Source of the DNA: Corallococcus sp. EGB
GTDB taxonomy: Bacteria; Myxococcota; Myxococcia; Myxococcales; Myxococcaceae
Reading direction: 5' to 3'
Length of the DNA: 64,000 bases
Assembly: GCF_019968905.1 (NCBI RefSeq)
Contig: NZ_CP079946.1
Coordinates: 7,971,356 to 8,035,355 of the forward strand
The notes beneath the pieces were generated by a model, which was given only the letters and a program-made list of their open reading frames with translations, had not been told where the DNA came from and did not search any database. This document shows, in pieces, positions 1 through 63,061 of the stretch. Position 1 is the first letter of the stretch. Every line of letters starts with the position of its first letter. A program made the translations under genes and the position numbers.

Positions 1-2876
1 TGGTGGGCAAGCGCTACACGCCCCCCTTCGACACGTACTTCGCGAAGGATGCGGACACCACGCTGCCGCTGAAGGACGGCGGCCAGGACACGGTGGGCTG
101 GCGCGTGATTCCGGCGGACTTCGTCACGCTGGACAGCGGCACGGGCATCGTCCACACGGCGCCCGCCTTCGGCGAGGACGACTACCGGGCCTACCGCAAG
201 GACGCCGCGCGCTTCCAGGATCCGGACGCGCTCGGCATGCGCTGCGCGGTGAAGCCGGACGGCACCTTCTCGGAGGAGGTGCCGCTCGTCGCCGGCCGCT
301 TCGTGAAGGACGCGGACAAGGACCTGCAGCGCAACCTGAAGGAGCGCGGGCTGCTCATCCACACGGAGCAGTACCGCCACGAGTACCCCTTCTGCTGGCG
401 CGCGGACGAGGACCCGCTCATCCAGTACGCCCGCCCCGCCTGGTACATCCGCACCACCTCCGTCATCGAGCAGGCCCAGGCGAACAACCAGCAGGTCAAC
501 TGGATCCCGGAGAACATCAAGGACGGCCGCTTCGGCGACTTCCTCGCCAACAACGTGGACTGGGCCCTGTCGCGCGAGCGCTACTGGGGCACGCCGCTGC
601 CCCTGTGGATCCACTCGGAGACGGGGGAGACGGAGGCCGTGGCCTCCATCGCGGAGCTGCGCCAGAAGCCGGGCAACAACGTGGCCGCCGTGGAGGCGGA
701 GCTGAAGGCGTTCCTCGCCGGCAAGCCGCACGAGTCCAACGCGGAGCACCTGCTGGTCCACAAGCCGTGGATCGACAAGGTGACGTATGAGAAGCCCGGC
801 TCCGGCGGGAAGTTCCAGCGCGTCCCGGAAGTGGTGGACGTGTGGTTCGACTCCGGCTGCATGCCCTTCGCGCAGTGGGGCTTCCCGCACGCGGAAGGCA
901 GCCGTGAGACGTTCAACCGCGCGTTCCCCGCGGACTTCATCTCGGAGGCCATCGACCAGACGCGCGGCTGGTTCTACTCGCTGCTCATGGTCAGCACGCT
1001 CCTCTTCGACGAGGAGACCCAGAAGCGCATCGGCCTGACGCCGAAGCGGGACTGGCCCATGCCGTACAAGAGCTGCATCGTGCTGGGCCACGTCTCCGAC
1101 AAGGAGGGCAAGAAGGAGTCCAAGTCCAAGGGCAACTACACCCCGCCGGAGATCATCCTGGACGAGGTGCGCATGGACTTCGCGGTGCTCACCGCCGCGG
1201 AGGCCGGCGTCCCCGCGGAGCCCGGCGTGGCGCTCATCGCGCGCGAGGACCTGGAGGGCCTGGACACGCAGGAGGGCGCGAAGGTGCAGCTCTTCCGCCC
1301 GGACCGGCCGGGCGCGCCCGTCACGGTGACGCTGAAGGTGCACAAGAAGCTCAAGCGCCGCGTGGTGCTGCTCGCGCCGCAGGAGCTGCAGCAGCTGGAC
1401 GTGAAGGCCTCCGCGCGCGGCGTGGACGTGATGCCGGTGGAGGTGCCCCGGCTGCCTGCCACGGAGCGCGTGGTGCTCAAGGACCCCGCCACCAAGGCGC
1501 CCGGCGCGGACGCGTTCCGGTGGTTCTTCTACGCGGCCAGCCCCACCTGGTCCAACACGCGCCACTCGCTGGCGAACGTGCGGCTGTTGCAGAAGGACTT
1601 CCAGGTCAAGCTGCGCAACGTCTACTCGTTCTTCACCATCTACGCGAACATCGACGGCTTCAACCCGGCGAAGGGCAACGCGGGCTCCACGGAGGCCCCG
1701 TGGCTGGCCATCCGCAAGAGCCAGGGCTGGCGCGAGGTGAAGGCCCGGCCGGTGCTGGACCGGTGGATCCTCTCCGAGGTGCAGCTCACCCTGCGCGACG
1801 TGGCCAGGGCGCTGGACACGTATCAGGTGTACGACGCGGCCCAGCGGATGGTGGCGCTGGTGGACGCGCTGTCCAACTGGTACCTGCGCCGCAGCCGCGA
1901 GCGCTTCTGGGCGCCGGGCTTCGAGCAGGACAAGCAGGACGCGTACTTCACGCTCTACGAGGCGCTGACGACCATCACCGCGCTGTCCGCGCCCTTCATC
2001 CCGTTCTTCGCGGATGACATGTGGGGCAACCTGGTGGGCAAGCCGTGGGGCGCGGCGCAGCCGGAGAGCGTGCACCTGGCGCGCTTCCCGGACGTGGACG
2101 CAAGCCTCATCGACGAGGGCCTGGCCGCGGAGATGGGCGCCGTGCGCGAGCTGGTGTCGCTGGGCCTCAAGGTCCGCACGGACAACCGGCTCAAGGTGCG
2201 CCAGCCGCTGGCGCGCGCGGACGTCATCCTGTCGCGCCGCGAGCTGACGGAGCGCGTGGCGGTGTACCAGGCGCTCATCTCCGACGAGCTCAACGTGCAC
2301 ACCGTGAAGCTGGTGGAGCCGGGCAGCCCGGAGGCGGACGTGGTGCGCTACCGCGTGCGTCCCAACCTGCGCGCCATGGGCAGCCGGCTGGGCCCCAAGC
2401 TCGCGCCGGTGCGCAAGGCGTTCGACGCGGGCGACGGTCGCGCGCTGCACCACGAGCTGCTCACCACGGGCAAGGTGGCCCTGAACGTGGGCGGCGAGGA
2501 CATGGTCTTCCCCGCCGAGGAGCTGGAGACGCTGGTGGAGGCCCAGCCGGGCTACGCCGCCGCGGGCGGAGGCGTGGGCGTGGTGGTGATGCACACGCAG
2601 CTCACCGAAGCCCTGGTGGACGAAGGCCTGGTGCGCGAGCTGCTGGCGCGCGTGCAGGGGGCCCGCAAGGACATGGACCTGGGCTACACCGACCGCATCC
2701 GCCTGTGGGTGGACGGCGATGAGCGCGTGAAGCGCGTCGTCGACGCCGCTCGCGACGAAATCGCCCGCGAGACCCTGGCCTCCGAAATCCACGTGGGCCC
2801 GCAGGGGCTCACCGGCTCGGAGGAGGAGGCCAACCTCAACGGCCTCCCGGCGAAGCTCCGCGTCGAGCGCGCCTGA
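1..2876 (+). CDS. ileS: Isoleucyl-tRNA synthetase, C-terminal ~957 residues (5' end outside window)
   Basis: Cytoplasmic enzyme that charges tRNA-Ile with isoleucine. The open frame enters at the left edge, so the HIGH motif and the N-terminus are missing; the GTG at position 3 is internal. Visible class-I landmarks are the editing/catalytic segment DWALSRERYWGTPLPLW (about 545-610), which resembles the eukaryote-like type-2 IleRS rather than the common bacterial type 1. The KMSKS loop reads KESKSKGN (about 1113-1136). GADAFRWFFYAASPTWSNTR follows at about 1502-1560, then the anticodon-binding domain (WILSEVQ, NWYLRRSRERFW). Between KMSKS and GADAFRW lie about 120 residues where roughly 20 are usual, an insertion of about 100 residues. 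No zinc-binding C-terminal tail of the type-1 form is seen. The stop is TGA at 2874. Confidence 0.95.
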   Translation, partial: VGKRYTPPFDTYFAKDADTTLPLKDGGQDTVGWRVIPADFVTLDSGTGIVHTAPAFGEDDYRAYRKDAARFQDPDALGMRCAVKPDGTFSEEVPLVAGRFVKDADKDLQRNLKERGLLIHTEQYRHEYPFCWRADEDPLIQYARPAWYIRTTSVIEQAQANNQQVNWIPENIKDGRFGDFLANNVDWALSRERYWGTPLPLWIHSETGETEAVASIAELRQKPGNNVAAVEAELKAFLAGKPHESNAEHLLVHKPWIDKVTYEKPGSGGKFQRVPEVVDVWFDSGCMPFAQWGFPHAEGSRETFNRAFPADFISEAIDQTRGWFYSLLMVSTLLFDEETQKRIGLTPKRDWPMPYKSCIVLGHVSDKEGKKESKSKGNYTPPEIILDEVRMDFAVLTAAEAGVPAEPGVALIAREDLEGLDTQEGAKVQLFRPDRPGAPVTVTLKVHKKLKRRVVLLAPQELQQLDVKASARGVDVMPVEVPRLPATERVVLKDPATKAPGADAFRWFFYAASPTWSNTRHSLANVRLLQKDFQVKLRNVYSFFTIYANIDGFNPAKGNAGSTEAPWLAIRKSQGWREVKARPVLDRWILSEVQLTLRDVARALDTYQVYDAAQRMVALVDALSNWYLRRSRERFWAPGFEQDKQDAYFTLYEALTTITALSAPFIPFFADDMWGNLVGKPWGAAQPESVHLARFPDVDASLIDEGLAAEMGAVRELVSLGLKVRTDNRLKVRQPLARADVILSRRELTERVAVYQALISDELNVHTVKLVEPGSPEADVVRYRVRPNLRAMGSRLGPKLAPVRKAFDAGDGRALHHELLTTGKVALNVGGEDMVFPAEELETLVEAQPGYAAAGGGVGVVVMHTQLTEALVDEGLVRELLARVQGARKDMDLGYTDRIRLWVDGDERVKRVVDAARDEIARETLASEIHVGPQGLTGSEEEANLNGLPAKLRVERA

Positions 2877-5566: not shown

Positions 5567-6741
5567 AAACCTGTCCGACTGTCGGACACGTTTGGACGAT
5601 GGCGGCGGCCTCCGAGGGCGGATGAAATCCTCCGACCGACCTCGTCATCCATCGTGGCTCGGGGCGCGCCGCTCTGGCCGGGCAACGAACCGAAACCTGT
5701 CCGACTGTCCGACAGGTTCTGCGAGCCCGCTCCGGGGAAGGCCGCCCCAGCAGCACGAACCTGTCCGACAAGTGCGGAAGCCCGTGACAAAAGAGGGACC
5801 ACAGGGCCAGCCGGACCGCACGAACCCGTCCGACTGTCGGACAAGTTTTGAAGCCCACTCAGGGAGGACCGTCCCCAGCAGCCCGAACCTGTCCGACTGT
5901 CCGACAGGTTTCGAAGCCCACGGTGATGGGGTCCACCGCCCCGCCCAAGCCACATGAACCCGTCCAACTGTTCAACAGGTTGGGAAGTCCATGGCGAGGG
6001 GGGCCACCGCGCCGCCCAGGCCGCATGAACCCGTCCAACTGTTCAACAGGTTGGGAAGTCCATGGCGAGGGGGGCCACCGCGCCGCCCAGGCCGCATGAA
6101 CCTGTCCGACCGTCTGACAAGTTTGCCCGTCCGTGGCGAGGGGCCCTTCATCGGCGCCGTGGGGACCTGTCCAACTGTCGGACAGGTCTGGAAGTGCCCG
6201 CGGCGCACGGCCCTTCCTCCCAGACCGAGGAAACCAGCCCGGACTGTCGGACAGGTTTGGAAGTCCGTGGCGCACGGGCCCTTCCTCCCGGGCAGAGGGA
6301 ACCTGTCCGACTGTCGGACAGGTCTTGAACGTCCGCACCAAGGAGGAGCCACTGCTCCGCCTGGGCAGCAGAACCGGTCCGACCGTCCGACAGGCTTTGA
6401 GTGTCCGTGGAAGTGGACTCCGCTCTGCCCGGACAGCAGAACCGGTCCGACTGTCCGACAGGTTCAGAAGTCCGTGGCGCGGGAGTTCCACTCCGCCCGG
6501 ACAGTAGAACCGGTCCGACTGTCCGACGGGTTTGGAAGTCCGTGGCGCGAGAGCTCCACTCCGCCTGGGCGGCTGAAGCCGGTCCGACTGTCCGACGGGT
6601 TCGGAACTCCGTGGCGCGGGGCCTCGCTCCGCACGGGTAGCGGAAGCCGGTCCGATTGTCGGACAGGTTTTGGAGGCCCGCCGCGACAGGGCTGCCGCCT
6701 CATCCGACCTGCACGAACTTGTCCGACTGTCGGACAGGTTT
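5567..6741. repeat. Array of ~18 units with a 21-bp palindrome, period ~68 bp
   Basis: Consensus core: arm CCTGTCCGAC, one central base (usually T), arm GTCGGACAGG, usually flanked by GAA and TTT. Cores start at 5570, 5696, 5825, 5888, 5959, 6030, 6101, 6166, 6234 (22 bp), 6302, 6374, 6442, 6510, 6579, 6647 and 6718. A half-copy lies at 5760 and a badly decayed one near 5629. Counting those two, 18 units are spaced 59-72 bp (mean about 67.5). The unit at 6302 is a perfect 10-1-10 palindrome. Many units carry TGTCCGAC on the right arm. From 6374 to 6600 the left arm reads CCGGTCC. The intervening ~47 bp are related to each other (for example GGAAGTCCGTGGCGCGGG recurs), so the whole unit is a diverged tandem repeat. 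It lies between two convergent genes, and the period drifts in frame, so apparent ORFs through it are not coding. Confidence 0.9.
5953..6094. repeat. Exact tandem duplication of one 71-bp array unit
   Basis: The 71 bases 5953-6023 recur without change at 6024-6094. A third copy starts at 6095 and keeps its left flank. The duplicated units carry variant arms (CCCGTCCAAC and GTTCAACAGG), so the inner G-to-A change on one side is matched by C-to-T on the other and the centre stays AAC-T-GTT. Identity of the two copies against strong divergence elsewhere points to recent unit duplication by slippage or unequal recombination. Confidence 0.9.
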
Positions 6742-43380: not shown

Positions 43381-43523
43381 GAGTGCGTGCTCCCTTGTCA
43401 TCCGGTGCCCGGCCGCTGTCCGTCCGCCCCCGTGAGACGAAATGAATTTCCGCCGTGTTCCCCGCGGGGAATTTCCCGCGGCTTTTTGAACGCGCACCTG
43501 CCCCGGCTAGAGTGCCGCCCACC

Positions 43524-44159
43524 GTGAACGACGAGCTGCGCGCACTCATCCTCGAAGCCCAGGACGGCAGCGTGCGTGCCTTTGAGTTGCTCGTGTCGTC
43601 GCACCTGCCGCGCGTGCGCCGCTTCGCGAGGGCATTCGCCGCGTCGGACTCGGATGTGGATGACCTGGCGCAGGAAGCGCTGGTGAAGGTCTACAAGAAC
43701 CTGCGCTCGTTCCGCTTCCAGTCCGCGTTCCAGACGTGGCTCTATTCGGTGGTGCGCAACGCGTTCTATGACGCCACCCGCAGCCGCGCTGGCCGCGAGC
43801 GCTCGCGCGAGGAACCGCTGGAGCAGGAGCACGCGAAGGCGCCGTCGGACGCCGAGTCCGCGGACGAAGGGATGATGCGCGCCCAGGAGCGGGACCGGTT
43901 GTGGCGGGCGCTGCGGGCGCTGCCGCCGGAGTTCCGCACCGCAGTGGTGCTCTTCGACGTGGAAGGGCACAGCTATGAAGAGGTGGCGGCCATCGAAGGG
44001 GTGCCGGTGGGCACCGTGAAGTCGCGCCTGTCGCGAGGCCGGGCGCACCTGAAGGCTCTGCTGGCGGGGGGCCAGGGCCCTGAGCGCCCGGAAGAGGATG
44101 CGCCGGTGGGAACATCCAGTCAGGACATTTCGTCGCATGCAGCAAGGAGCCGGAGATGA
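43524..44159 (+). CDS. ECF-type RNA polymerase sigma factor
   Basis: 211 residues from GTG 43524 (GTG 43512 is also possible). Sigma region 2: LVSSHLPRVRRFARAFAASDSDVDDLAQEALVKVYKNLRSFRFQSAFQTWLYSVVRNAFYD, the -10 binding part with the DLAQEAL core-binding helix. Region 4: LRALPPEFRTAVVLFDVEGHSYEEVAAIEGVPVGTVKSRLSRGRAHLKALL, the -35 reading helix. No region 1.1 or 3. The partner gene overlaps its stop by four bases, the usual sigma/anti-sigma layout, so activity is probably held by that membrane protein until an envelope signal arrives. Confidence 0.93.
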   Translation: MNDELRALILEAQDGSVRAFELLVSSHLPRVRRFARAFAASDSDVDDLAQEALVKVYKNLRSFRFQSAFQTWLYSVVRNAFYDATRSRAGRERSREEPLEQEHAKAPSDAESADEGMMRAQERDRLWRALRALPPEFRTAVVLFDVEGHSYEEVAAIEGVPVGTVKSRLSRGRAHLKALLAGGQGPERPEEDAPVGTSSQDISSHAARSRR

Positions 44160-44746
44160 GTGAGCCCGAGGACAGGGAGGACCGCGCGCTGCGCGAGCGT
44201 CTGGCGGCGCTGCGGGACGACGTGCCCGGGCCCGACTTCCAGGCCCTGCTCCACCGGCGGTTGGTAGAAGCCGGCCCTCCCATACCGGCATCAGGGTGGG
44301 ATGCGGTGCGGGACTTCTGGCGGCGGCGCGCGCCGGTGCTCTGGCCGGCGGTGGGCGTGGCAGCGGGCGTGGCCACCTTCCTGGTGCTGGGCGCGGTCCG
44401 TGGCACGCCTGGAACGGAAGCTCCGGCGATGGCCGGGCTTGAGCGGCCCGGAACGCAGGTGCCGGTGAGCAAGGTGGCGGTCATCAAGCTGGACTTCACG
44501 GCGGACGTGGCCGTGGAGCAGGCGGACTTCCAGGTGAGCCTCCCGGAGGGGCTGTCCTTCTGGGCGGATGGAGAGGAATTGCCGCTGCGCTCCTATCAAT
44601 GGACGCAGCCGTTGAGCGCGGGCAGCAACGTGATTCCCATCGCGGTGCGGGGCCAGCGGCCGGGGCGCTACCTGGTGACGGCGCTGGCGCGCGCGGGCGA
44701 CCAGCGCATCGAGCACGATGTCGTGCTGGAGGTCACGGGCGGATGA
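44156..44746 (+). CDS. Membrane-anchored anti-sigma-like protein
   Basis: 196 residues from ATG 44156, inside the sigma-gene stop. The N-terminal cytoplasmic ~57 residues (REDRALRERLAALRDDVPGPDFQALLHRRLVEAG) are helical and charged, suiting sigma binding. There is one membrane helix (VLWPAVGVAAGVATFLVLGAV, about 61-81). The periplasmic domain (KLDFTADVAVEQADFQVSLPEGLSFWADGEELPLRSYQW) resembles a small Ig-like sensor. No zinc-binding HxxxCxxC of ZAS anti-sigmas. Function is assigned by position and topology. Confidence 0.75.
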   Translation: MSEPEDREDRALRERLAALRDDVPGPDFQALLHRRLVEAGPPIPASGWDAVRDFWRRRAPVLWPAVGVAAGVATFLVLGAVRGTPGTEAPAMAGLERPGTQVPVSKVAVIKLDFTADVAVEQADFQVSLPEGLSFWADGEELPLRSYQWTQPLSAGSNVIPIAVRGQRPGRYLVTALARAGDQRIEHDVVLEVTGG

Positions 44747-45189
44747 AGACCTGGCTGTCGACACCGGCGCTCGTCGGTCTCCTGTGGCTGGGAGGCGGAA
44801 CCGCGCATGCGCAGCAGACGCCGGCACCGCCGCCATCGGAGGCCGTGCGGCCACCCGAGGCCCCCGCGCCTCCGCCCCCCTCCGGCGCACAGCAGGCGCA
44901 CGTGCGCAGCTCGCACACGGTGGACGTCATCGCGCCGGGGGAGCAGGTGGACACCATCCTGGGCCGCCGGAACATGGAGCGCCCTGCCCCACCGCCCCGG
45001 AGCGACACGGTCCGGCCACCCTCCGGCCCGGAGGGTCGGGGCCCCACGGGAGGCCCGGGACAGGACGGCCGTCCCAACGGGCCGCGCCCGCCAGGGGAAG
45101 AGGGCCGCATGCGCTCGCCCTCACCGAGGACCGACGGCGCACCACCTCCGCCCAACCAGCAGCCCCCCCATCAACAGCCCCGGCGCTGA
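44743..45189 (+). CDS. Secreted Pro/Gly-rich protein of the sigma-factor operon
   Basis: 148 residues from ATG 44743 in the preceding stop. A signal peptide (MKTWLSTPALVGLLWLGGGTAHAQQ) is followed by low-complexity Pro-rich sequence (PPPSEAVRPPEAPAPPPPS). A short ordered piece (HVRSSHTVDVIAPGEQVDTILGRR) comes next, then a Pro/Gly/Arg tail ending HQQPRR. Extended and basic, it may be a periplasmic spacer or ligand. Coupled to the sigma and anti-sigma genes, so probably part of the same envelope circuit. No known family. Confidence 0.7.
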   Translation: MKTWLSTPALVGLLWLGGGTAHAQQTPAPPPSEAVRPPEAPAPPPPSGAQQAHVRSSHTVDVIAPGEQVDTILGRRNMERPAPPPRSDTVRPPSGPEGRGPTGGPGQDGRPNGPRPPGEEGRMRSPSPRTDGAPPPPNQQPPHQQPRR

Positions 45190-45270
45190 AGGCCGGTGGG
45201 AGCCGGGGGCCGGAGGATGGCCAGGGGGAGGCGTTCACACTCGCGAGGTCCTGGCCCCGGTCTTCCAAAA

Positions 45271-45361
45271 CCTGTCCGACTGTCGGACAGGTTTCCGCGG
45301 ATCCGCCGGGGACAAGGGGGTTCGGCCTTGAGGGTCCAGACCTGTCCGACTGTCGGACAGG
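45271..45361. repeat. Two perfect units of the 21-bp palindrome, 70 bp apart
   Basis: Cores at 45271-45291 and 45341-45361 are both perfect 10-1-10 palindromes (arms CCTGTCCGAC and GTCGGACAGG around T). They are spaced 70 bp, the same period as in the large array 39 kb away. They sit in the 337 bases between the Pro-rich gene and the TPR/barrel gene; no gene is seen there. Confidence 0.9.
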
Positions 45362-45526
45362 TTCTTGCGGCCCCCGAGGACGGCGGGCTCCAGCAGGGTT
45401 GCGCTGGCGGCTCCGTGGGAACGGGCCTGGGTCTGCGCGAACCGGGACCTCCCTCCATCCCTCCGTGCGGGATGGCGCGGTGCGCCGCCCTCGCCCCCGT
45501 GCGGGGAATGCGCTACGTCGCAGGGC

Positions 45527-47314
45527 GTGTGGACGGGCCTGCTGCTCCTGGTGGCGCTCGCGGCCGGGGAGCCGCTGGAGGACGCGCGCGAGGCCTTCGC
45601 GGCGGGCCGGTACGCGGAAGCCGAGCAACAGGCGCTCCAGGCCCCACCTTCCGGCGCCTCGCTGTACCTCGTGGGCCTGGCCCGCTTCCGCCTGGGCCGT
45701 CCCGCGGAGGCCCTGGAGTCCCTCGATGCCGCGGGGAGTGCTCCGGATGCGCCGGAGCCCGATGCCTGGAACTTCAACCGGGGCGCGTGCCTCTACGCCC
45801 TCGGACGCTTCGCGGAAGCGGAGGAGTCCTTCGCGCAAGTCCGTGAAGGGGCGCCGCTCGCCCGCGTGGCGTGGCTCAACGCGGGCTTCGCCGCGTTCGA
45901 CGCGGGCGCCCCGGACCGCGCCGCGCGGTGGGCCGAGCGCGCCGCCCCAGGCGCATCCAGGGAAGAGGCCCTCCAGGTCGAGCAGCTGCGCGCCCTGCTC
46001 GCGCCCATCGTGAATGAAGGCGATGAGGCCTATCGCCAGGGACTCGCGTCCTTCGACGCTGGCCGCTTCGATGAAGCCCGTGCGCACTTCCTGCGCGCGG
46101 CGGCACGCCAACCCGACTCCGGCAGGGCCCGGCTCATGGCGGGCGCATCAGCCTGGCGCCTGGGCTTGCGCACCGAAGCCCGCGAGGCCCTCCTCGCGGC
46201 GCTCGCGCTGACGTTGAGCCCGCTGGACCGCGAGACGGCGCACCAGTACCTGGACCTGCTCTCCTACGGGCTGCGCTCCAGCGGCCCGGGCTTCTGGGTC
46301 TCCGCGAGCGCGGGGCCGGGCTTCGACAGCAACGTGCTCCAGGTGGGCGTCGCGGCCCGCGACGTGTCCGGCGCGAACGCGGACGTGGTGACCGCGAGCG
46401 CCTTCGCGGAGGCCACCGTCGGCCTCACCACCCGCCTCCGCCTGTCCGACAGGCTCGTCGCGGCCCTGTCCTACGGCGGCAGCCAGCGCGTCTATGCCCA
46501 TGCGTCCGTGCGGGACTACTCGCTCCAACTGCACCGCGCCACGGCGGCCCTGGAGTGGGAGGCCGCGCGTCAGGTGCGCGCGGGGCTGCTCGCGGGCGGA
46601 GACCTGTTCTTCACCGGCCTGGAGGACTTCCGGGGGCTCCAGGCCTCCGTGAACGCCAACGCCTGGCTTGCCTGGGATGAAACCGAACGCACCACCACGC
46701 GGCTGGACCTGGGCGTGGCCGCCAAGGACGGGCTCGGCGAGGAGTTCGCGTATCTCACCGGCCCCCGCCTGGACGCGACGCTGTCCCAGGAATGGCGCCT
46801 GGGCCCGGCGGGCGCCACGGCGTGGTACCGCTACCGGCAGGACCGCATCGGCACGCTGGAGCAGTCCTTCACCAGCTCGGACGAGGCCCTCGTTTCGCAG
46901 ACGTATGTCATTCCATTCGGGTTCACGGGCCACGCCGTGGGCGCCTCCGGCCGGTGGCAACTCCTGCCCTGGCTCACCGCCAGCCTGGACGCGGACCTGG
47001 AGTGGCGCCGCTACCAGGAGGACAACGCCTTGCGCGTCGTGACGGCCACGGGCGACACCGAGACGTGGAACGCGCGCCGCCGCCACGACACGCGCTTCGT
47101 GCTCATCCCCACCGTGAGCGCCCGGCTGTCCAGCCACCTGCGGCTCCTCGCGCGTTACGAGTTGCTGGTGAACCGCTCCAACATCGACATGCGGCTGACG
47201 GACGATGACCCGGCCGCGTGCGAGGGCTCGACGCACCTGTGCCACGCGTATGACGCCACGAACGGCAACTACGAGAAGCACGGGGTGACGCTCCAGCTCG
47301 AAGCCGCCTGGTGA
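45527..47314 (+). CDS. TPR-domain outer-membrane beta-barrel protein
   Basis: 595 residues from GTG 45527; the start is uncertain, since the open frame reaches 45365 but runs through the repeat. A short hydrophobic start (VWTGLLLLVALAAGEP) is the signal. Residues about 20-240 are TPR-like repeats (AREAFAAGRYAEAEQQAL, NFNRGACLYALGRFAEAEESFAQV, YRQGLASFDAGRFDEARAHFLRAA). From about 255 beta-strands alternate (FWVSASAGPGFDSNVLQVG, GLTTRLRLSDRLVAALSYGG, ATAWYRYRQDR), ending LQLEAAW with a terminal aromatic, as in barrels with periplasmic TPR domains (surface lipoprotein assembly modifier-like). It may belong to the upstream sigma circuit. Confidence 0.8.
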   Translation: MWTGLLLLVALAAGEPLEDAREAFAAGRYAEAEQQALQAPPSGASLYLVGLARFRLGRPAEALESLDAAGSAPDAPEPDAWNFNRGACLYALGRFAEAEESFAQVREGAPLARVAWLNAGFAAFDAGAPDRAARWAERAAPGASREEALQVEQLRALLAPIVNEGDEAYRQGLASFDAGRFDEARAHFLRAAARQPDSGRARLMAGASAWRLGLRTEAREALLAALALTLSPLDRETAHQYLDLLSYGLRSSGPGFWVSASAGPGFDSNVLQVGVAARDVSGANADVVTASAFAEATVGLTTRLRLSDRLVAALSYGGSQRVYAHASVRDYSLQLHRATAALEWEAARQVRAGLLAGGDLFFTGLEDFRGLQASVNANAWLAWDETERTTTRLDLGVAAKDGLGEEFAYLTGPRLDATLSQEWRLGPAGATAWYRYRQDRIGTLEQSFTSSDEALVSQTYVIPFGFTGHAVGASGRWQLLPWLTASLDADLEWRRYQEDNALRVVTATGDTETWNARRRHDTRFVLIPTVSARLSSHLRLLARYELLVNRSNIDMRLTDDDPAACEGSTHLCHAYDATNGNYEKHGVTLQLEAAW

Positions 47315-52808: not shown

Positions 52809-53947
52809 CGGTGTGCCTCCGGGTGCGGCGCTTGCGCGAGACGCCAGAGCGGCCCTTCGACGAGCGAGTACAGCAGCACCGCGTCCGCGAGCGGATTGCC
52901 CGCCGCGAAGCGCAGGCCGGTGTCGTCGTGCACCGGGAAGGCCGCGAAGTGGAGGCTGGTGAGCAGCCCGTCCAGGGCCTCCTCATCATCGAACGCCGCC
53001 GCCCCGACGAGCGCGAGCCCGCTGGAGCCCGCGTTCGCGTTCACCCACGGGATGGTGGGCCCGGAGTCGATGTCCTGCATCGCGGCTGTCTCCGCGGGCC
53101 ACTCGCCCGCCCACGCGAAGCCCAGCGTATGCCCCAGGAGCGCGGCGCGGGCCCGCTGGTACTGGTCACGCGCGAAGTCCGCGTCCACCACCTGGAGCAT
53201 GTGCGCGGCGAGCCACAGCGTGGAGCCCTCCGGCCCGTCCTTCGTCACGCCGTCATAGGTGAAGCTCGACACGAGCAGCCCTGTCCGACGGTCGGACAGG
53301 TGCTCCCTCGCGGAGGCCACCCAGCGGCGAAGCAGCGCCCCATGGTCCCGCCCGTCCACCCTGTCCGACAGGCGCACCGCCGCGAGCGCCACCGTGTTGC
53401 AGAAGGTCCAGCCCTCGTCGGGGTAGCTCTCCGCCGCCAGCACCGGCGCGCGCTCCAGTTGTCCGACGATGAGGTCCACGCGCTCACGCAACAGCGGCGC
53501 GGAGTCCACGCGGGGCTCCACCATCTGGCGCGCGGCCAGCATCAACGCCAGCTCACCGTCCACGAAGAGGCTGCGTCCGGCCGGGTCCTTGAAGGGAGCC
53601 GCGTGCACATACGGCAGGAAGAAGGCTTCATGCGCCCTCCGTTCGTCGCGCAGCGTCCGGTCGATGAGCACGTCCACCACGGCCAGGTGCTCCGCCTTCC
53701 GCGCGGGCTCCGACAGCGCGAGGTTCGCGAACGACAGCACGGAGAAGGTGCGGACCATCAGGTCCCACTCCGGGTTCGTGCGGTGGAGCACGTCGCGCTC
53801 CGCGCTCGACTCCTGGAGCGAGAACACGCGTTGACGGGAGGCCAGTGCCGCCGCCAGTTCCCCCCGGTCCCACGGCCGGAACAACCAATGGAGCGCCGGC
53901 AGCCACACCGCCACGGCCAGCACCAGCAGCACGAGTTTGCGTCGCAT
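52805..53947 (-). CDS. Membrane-anchored alpha/alpha-toroid protein, possibly linalool dehydratase/isomerase-like
   Basis: 380 residues from ATG 53947; the long open frame upstream (to 54430) is not coding-like. One N-terminal anchor (KLVLLVLAVAVWLPALHWLF). The body is helical: FLPYVHAAPFKDPAGRSLFVDGELALMLAARQM, YPDEGWTFCNTVALAAVRLSDR, LVSSFTYDGVTKDGPEGSTLWLAAHMLQVVDADFARDQYQRAR, DIDSGPTIPWVNANAGSSGLALVGAAAF and NPLADAVLLYSLVEGPLW. This resembles the family annotated as linalool dehydratase/isomerase-domain proteins, in which the Cys and Asp residues line a central pocket. That name is tentative and the substrate unknown. HLSDRRTGLL is encoded by a perfect copy of the window's palindrome. Confidence 0.65.
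   Translation of the reverse strand: MRRKLVLLVLAVAVWLPALHWLFRPWDRGELAAALASRQRVFSLQESSAERDVLHRTNPEWDLMVRTFSVLSFANLALSEPARKAEHLAVVDVLIDRTLRDERRAHEAFFLPYVHAAPFKDPAGRSLFVDGELALMLAARQMVEPRVDSAPLLRERVDLIVGQLERAPVLAAESYPDEGWTFCNTVALAAVRLSDRVDGRDHGALLRRWVASAREHLSDRRTGLLVSSFTYDGVTKDGPEGSTLWLAAHMLQVVDADFARDQYQRARAALLGHTLGFAWAGEWPAETAAMQDIDSGPTIPWVNANAGSSGLALVGAAAFDDEEALDGLLTSLHFAAFPVHDDTGLRFAAGNPLADAVLLYSLVEGPLWRLAQAPHPEAHR
53280..53372. repeat. Palindrome copies inside a coding sequence
   Basis: 53280-53300 is a perfect 10-1-10 copy of the array core with G at the centre; it encodes LSDRRTG on the minus strand in frame. 53360-53372 is a short form (CCTGTC, C, GACAGG) encoding LSDR. A second short form is at 46441-46453 in the TPR/barrel gene, encoding LSDR on the plus strand. 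The long copy is unlikely by chance; the short ones may be. Confidence 0.75.

Positions 53948-62984: not shown

Positions 62985-63061
<77 letters not shown>

Follow-up and report, generated by a model that had tools for sequence, protein, structure and literature searches.

Palindromic cores between a sigma-factor gene and a TPR gene

We analysed a 64-kb stretch of Corallococcus sp. EGB DNA, here called the window, in which a pair of palindromic cores lies between the genes for an ECF-type sigma-70 factor and a TPR-repeat protein. The features concerned, with window coordinates and the basis of each call, are as follows.

5569..6739, + strand: large array, with 14 recognised copies of the core seen in the pair, from which it is 38.5 kb away
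43455..44159, + strand: ECF-type sigma-70 factor, neighbour of the pair (Pfam)
44743..45189, + strand: proline-rich ORF just upstream of the pair, without a Pfam match (ORF and Pfam search)
45241..45267, + strand: left element body, directly upstream of core copy 1 (profile match)
45268..45294, + strand: core copy 1, a 27-bp palindrome with its centre T at 45281 (sequence match, shuffles)
45295..45337, no strand: spacer between the two cores, off the family body in fixed register
45338..45364, + strand: palindromic core copy 2, centre T at 45351 (sequence match, shuffles)
45365..45391, + strand: right element body, directly downstream of core copy 2 (profile match)
45527..47314, + strand: TPR-repeat protein downstream of the pair (Pfam)
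53279..53301, + strand: single core, centre G, within a predicted gene (core search and gene calls)

The gene calls came from a codon-usage script that missed small genes (e.g. 44743-45189), and two ORFs without Pfam matches separate the sigma gene from the pair. The original prediction placed the pair between a sigma-factor operon and a TPR/barrel gene; Pfam recovered the sigma-70 and TPR proteins but found no barrel domain in the product of 45527-47314. A tRNA gene lies at 62988-63061 on the minus strand.

The 23-bp cores at 45270-45292 and 45340-45362 are identical (ACCTGTCCGACTGTCGGACAGGT) and are 70 bp apart from start to start, just as had been read from the letters, and the large array, put at 39 kb away, measured 38.5 kb. 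Copy 1 extends to a 27-bp palindrome in which only the centre base is unpaired (arms 45268-45280 and 45282-45294), and copy 2, identical over the 23 bp, differs from it in the outermost bases. The window contains 26 matches to the core (at most three mismatches, both strands), versus none in 100 dinucleotide-preserving shuffles. The left body matches a profile built from other single elements with a score reached by none of 5000 shuffles, and the right body matches the family profile with a shuffle p of 0.045 (window-wide p of 0.018). The intervening spacer does not follow the family body (copy 1 right flank, shuffle p 0.54; copy 2 left flank, p 0.47), and thus a recent tandem duplication is not demonstrated for this pair. 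Tandem Repeats Finder listed the large array (5.9-6.7 kb) and not the pair.

The core belongs to a dispersed intergenic family

A 19-bp pattern allowed three mismatches matched 284 places per strand in the 9.43-Mb single-contig genome, versus 4 for the reversed pattern used as control, and an exact 15-mer gave 60 + 64 = 124 matches versus 0. Taken with the shuffles, the count over the reversed control rules out a chance origin of the cores. In the stretches fetched for closer study a 17-bp pattern gave 276 sites at up to three mismatches (against the 284 found genome-wide with the 19-bp pattern). Upon allowing four mismatches 305 sites were obtained, versus 26 for the reversed pattern, and hence sites with three or four mismatches were retained only when less than 200 bp from a better one. 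The resulting 288 core sites fall into at least 57 clusters, 17 of them single-copy and the largest arrays having 20 copies; the clusters were drawn from the places listed (about 100 per genome), and thus a few weak or late clusters may be absent. All but five of the 57 clusters are clear of predicted genes, the window core at 53279-53301 being among the five that overlap one. Of 54 nearest gene edges 38 are 3' ends (19 versus 6 in tandem gene contexts, P = 0.015). The consensus of 226 oriented sites is AAACCTGTCCGAC-T-GTCSGACAGGTTT with G or C at +4, the C variant being present at 77 of 264 sites.

The claim that the pair represents a dispersed family and not a local accident is therefore upheld by the genome-wide count that had been proposed as its check, by the number of clusters and by the orthologous presence and absence described below. 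The two window loci are not the only two in the genome, the family occupying hundreds of places. Segmental duplication of the large array as the source of the pair is ruled out, as spacers are unrelated between loci.

Orthologous slots are either occupied or empty

The flanks of the pair were found in seven of the 15 other genomes of the genus, five of which are occupied and two empty (G080 and G085); the slot is also empty in a genome named Pyxidicoccus (L032). A scan with the TPR protein gave five Corallococcus records plus one from Pyxidicoccus. The occupied slots hold two cores at 123 bp in G075, three at 125 bp in G078, seven at 130-137 bp in G081 and nine in G088 (six of the eight gaps at 83-97 bp), that of G076 being occupied on broken contigs. 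Hence, both copy number and period change in one place. The stretch has diverged too far in the empty relatives for insertion ends to be resolved. In G081 a 435-residue ORF (G081:C7:3324500-3326350, L269, ORF 293-1600, minus strand) lies in an intergenic slot where five other species of the genus have palindrome arrays.

A second slot, C1:8506262, was read in 13 of 15 relatives (G076 and G089 being left out). It contains one core in the window's genome (G000), four in G077, five in G079, eight in G078, five in G087 and nine in G088, with 20 of 26 gaps at 69-75 bp. It is without a core (at most two mismatches) in G075, G080, G081, G082, G083, G084, G085 and G086, the flanks joining cleanly in G075 and G082. 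At a third site, C1:8219947, the 27-bp core is identical in G000, G087 and G088, and the right flank differs at 9-11 of 49 positions. The upstream gene side of that site differs at 5 of 117 to 18 of 110 positions, G087 and G088 differing little (5 of 117). At the same site G077 has three core differences, one of which changes the centre T to A, and G079 lacks the element. The core at C1:6981343 is missing in G087.

The proposed comparison of orthologous intergenic regions thus gave slots both full and empty among relatives, and the target duplication sought with it was not found. None was seen by eye in 12 aligned copies (two of these lie within one duplicated stretch), nor at the core-less sites in G075, G082 and G087, which lack sharply resolved ends.

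Arrays change copy number in place and keep the inner core

In the window's genome 119 of the 169 spacers of 30-120 bp give a period of 66-73 bp, with smaller classes near 50, 57-60 and 36-40 bp. Spacer identity averages 0.615 within loci (maximum 0.98) and 0.499 between loci, versus 0.463 for shuffled spacers. As the spacers of one locus are mutually homologous and single copies occur, these are not the unrelated spacers between direct repeats of a CRISPR array, which the arrays resemble in having repeats separated by spacers of similar length. Strong similarity across clusters was confined to two arrays about 1.5 kb apart (up to 0.95), other locus pairs not exceeding 0.74, and this weak upper tail hints at an old common body.

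The original prediction went further in proposing that the family moves or is copied between sites as multi-unit blocks. An identical core with a similar period at unrelated places is what such copying would give, as are the alike spacers of the two neighbouring arrays. However, the spacers of other locus pairs average near the shuffled level, and copy number changes in place at orthologous slots, the one to nine copies of slot C1:8506262, mostly about 71 bp apart, pointing to single insertion and subsequent tandem change at the site. Block movement therefore finds no support here; judged from the spacer comparison it is already contradicted for distant loci, and we regard it as hardly credible.

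Within arrays the core changes more slowly than its surroundings. Homologous units differ at 0.070-0.073 of the inner twelve positions, 0.138-0.216 of spacer positions and 0.19-0.26 of arm positions 8-13. At a threshold of 0.65 the inner twelve gave 0.073 against 0.216 for spacers and were lower in 22 of 23 loci, and at 0.75 they gave 0.070 against 0.138 (lower in 14 and higher in 3 of 18 loci), a contrast partly favoured by the procedure used to recognise units. Arm changes in this genome are one-sided (at positions +-8, 52 GA or TC versus 4 GC), indicating that arm pairing is not kept there after insertion.

The whole element in relatives

The pattern GTCSGACWGTCSGAC matches 33 of the 195 genomes of the phylum; the exact pattern, which misses the +4 C form, gives only 23. 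All 16 Corallococcus genomes have the family, ten with 73-244 copies and six with 7-19. Outside the genus, in the same taxonomic family, the pattern also occurs in five of six genomes of genus g3 (1-19 matches), in one of g7 (11) and in one of g19 (13). Ten further genomes with one or two matches are at the control level. In a 354-column tree of one locus G086 (73 copies) groups with the low-copy species, and hence high or low copy number requires two changes. The g19 genome, G138, has mainly the GTCCGACTGTCCGAC form, with small arrays of period 70 and 77 bp (loci L149 and L228).

Elements were read at 92 of 102 places in the genomes of 11 relatives; a few of the 92 resemble coincidences in coding sequence, two overlap and some G138 copies are small arrays. 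As these copies were collected with a fixed 15-bp core, conservation of the core is by construction, and information comes only from positions +-8 outwards. The g3 consensus has a central CAACTGGTCCGAC-T-GTCGGACCAGTTG, separated by short gaps from GGACCTTCCGGGCGCG on its left and CGCGCCCGGAAGGTCC on its right, the whole forming a dyad of about 71 bp, so that the array period is approximately one element length. The stems differ between lineages in a compensatory manner: CTGG/CCAG in G061 and G066, CTTG mostly in G065 and CCTG/CAGG mostly in Corallococcus. Among 87 de-duplicated elements (the relatives' copies plus 17 single copies of the window's genome) the bases at +-8 are paired in 93% versus 60% expected and those at +-9 in 85% versus 51%. 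Within g3 alone the excess holds at +-8 (97% versus 50%) and is absent at +-9 (76% versus 73%); the +-9 signal is thus one between genera, with few independent events behind it. Only in g3 are the outer arms more complementary than their shuffles (44% above the 95th percentile), and there they show no covariation; complementarity is at the shuffled level in low-copy Corallococcus (9%), G138 (0) and the window's genome (7-12%).

The eight copies read in G061, at dispersed places, have in common a discrete unit some 158 bp long, the inverted ends of which read CYRAGCCAG and CTGGCTYRG. A query with one copy found, among the matches listed, at least some further copies of the unit in G061, G062, G063, G064 and G066. 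The same unit gave, among the matches listed, partial matches in 10 genomes. In G066 a 1.65-kb stretch around one element is present twice at 95% identity (loci L208 and L210).

The centre base tends to follow replication direction

The origin was placed by parS sites near 9.41 Mb/0 in G000 and near the end of the G077 sequence, the terminus being taken as the opposite point. When each cluster is scored by its majority centre base on the + strand, the first half of the G000 chromosome has 23 clusters with A and 7 with T, and the second half 7 with A and 18 with T (57 clusters, 2 ties; Fisher P = 0.0004, or 0.0001-0.0004 for a terminus placed at 4.4-5.0 Mb). Single copies with at most one mismatch (6 A, 2 T and 1 C versus 3 A and 4 T) are too few to decide. 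Base-composition skew is ruled out as the cause, since background A/(A+T) rises from 0.482 in the first half to 0.515 in the second, which runs counter to the trend of the centre base. The linkage recurs in a second species, G077, where the T-form is found at 26 places on + and 66 on - in the first half and at 49 and 14 in the second; these are places and not independent, and 55 of the 155 were derived from totals rather than listed. The 19 places of G061 showed no clear bias by eye.

The bias persists in convergent gene pairs, in which the genes themselves impose no direction (6 A to 2 T in the first half versus 2 A to 9 T in the second, P = 0.024), which argues against the palindromes acting as RNA hairpins that terminate transcription or stabilise mRNA 3' ends. 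Such hairpins would have a 12-bp stem and a 3-nt loop (-17.8 kcal/mol) and would lie, as the palindromes do, near gene 3' ends. However, with the frequent +4 C variant the stem contains a C:C mismatch (-11.4 kcal/mol), only three T residues follow the stem in the consensus, arm covariation is absent inside the window's genome and arrays reach 20 copies. At gathering score the sole Rfam match in the window was one tRNA, the palindrome matching no known structured-RNA family. We therefore think a hairpin role very unlikely.

A different reading is that the core is the binding site of a nucleoid or segregation protein and that operator- or centromere-like arrays spread mainly by selection. In the F-plasmid sopC centromere inverted-repeat sites follow one another in tandem at constant spacing, and the Corallococcus arrays are alike in this. 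Polarity that tracks replication, the slower change of the inner twelve positions relative to spacers, arm positions that vary independently as expected of half-sites, and the core retained at C1:8219947 are all consistent with such a site. However, unlike a chromosome-maintenance site, the palindrome varies about 35-fold in copy number within the genus (7 to 244); its slots are either empty or full, g3 has the discrete ~158-bp units with inverted ends, and, in contrast to sopC, it is dispersed at more than 50 chromosomal places in numbers very different between species. Selection on a binding site is thus an unlikely main cause of the arrays.

Comparison with known palindromic elements

PMC3116915 and PMC3733652 describe REP and REPIN elements to which the family is similar in several respects: short intergenic palindromes, many downstream of genes, that occur singly and in tandem clusters, the existence of subfamilies whose stems have different but still complementary bases, strong copy-number contrasts among relatives and ordered tandem arrays that take in flanking DNA. 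In PMC3116915 REPINs are reported to be arranged as tandem repeats together with flanking sequence, and five tandem REP arrays to run forward near 2 Mb versus six reversed near 4 Mb, an orientation by genome position that invites comparison with the Corallococcus polarity. The family differs in other respects. No match to Y1 transposase/RAYT (PF01797, E <= 0.001) was found in the window's genome, a control search being positive in 5 of 14 genomes, and this difference from REP/REPIN systems rules out a RAYT/IS200 origin. The conserved GTAG or CGTC tag of REPs is absent beside the core, both in the 226-site profile and at the 92 sites of the 11 relatives. Copies are not inverted doublets of two palindromes as REPINs are, since 17 of 57 clusters are single and most arrays are mainly of one orientation by centre base. 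The 12-13-bp stem with a 1-3-nt loop in g3 lies, unlike a REP, inside the larger ~71-bp dyad.

The family is MITE-like in being short, non-coding and dispersed, and the g3 form has a near-constant length of about 158 bp with inverted ends. Terminal inverted repeats at fixed ends are present in this form in G061, G064 and G066, and the Corallococcus form is without resolved common termini. In contrast to MITEs, no target duplication was seen and no partner transposase with the same ends was identified. Given the lack of RAYT, tag, inverted doublets and target duplication, we call the element REP/MITE-like, yet a member of neither REP/REPIN nor MITE.

Among the best 25 of 221 families in G000 none matched more than 3 of 100 flanking proteins, and three DDE transposase models each matched two (the same or different proteins). 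A phage or plasmid origin is rejected, as the 21-bp core had no exact match in IMG/VR contigs and no plasmid record was similar to the 181-bp stretch holding the g3 element. Exact core strings had no match in the PMC open literature, and among the papers listed by topic no title or opening of an abstract described the family, which leaves its absence from print unproven.

A probable non-autonomous element that inserts singly and multiplies locally

The most probable explanation, which we favour with some reserve, is that the two cores form a small array of a dispersed REP/MITE-like palindromic element, itself non-autonomous, that inserted singly and was amplified locally. The unit would be about 71 bp, a 27-bp core with a body on each side, the bodies being the complementary outer arms in g3. 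Single copies would insert into intergenic DNA, mostly near gene 3' ends, and some would then multiply head to tail in place to give the ~70-bp period. The spacers would then drift and the inner 15 bp (GTCCGAC-W-GTCSGAC) would stay, probably through recognition by a trans-acting protein (an enzyme of mobilisation or a DNA-binding protein). We infer that the element was dispersed by transposition, and recognition of the core by such a putative protein would account for core retention.

The polarity allows a further, tentative proposal, to which we give little weight: that this is a RAYT-less palindromic element whose polarity is set by the replication fork through insertion into, or loop inversion on, single-stranded DNA of one template strand. 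Were this so, the otherwise symmetric element would record fork direction, and its centre base could flip at a fixed site; at C1:8219947 it is A in G077 versus T in G000, G087 and G088.

The family is a high-copy palindromic repeat of predatory myxobacteria with no known enzyme behind the palindrome. With zero to nine copies in orthologous slots of a single genus, the way in which bacterial tandem arrays arise and grow can be read directly, and through the link of centre base to replichore it can be tested whether palindromes that move or invert do so on single-stranded DNA at the replication fork.
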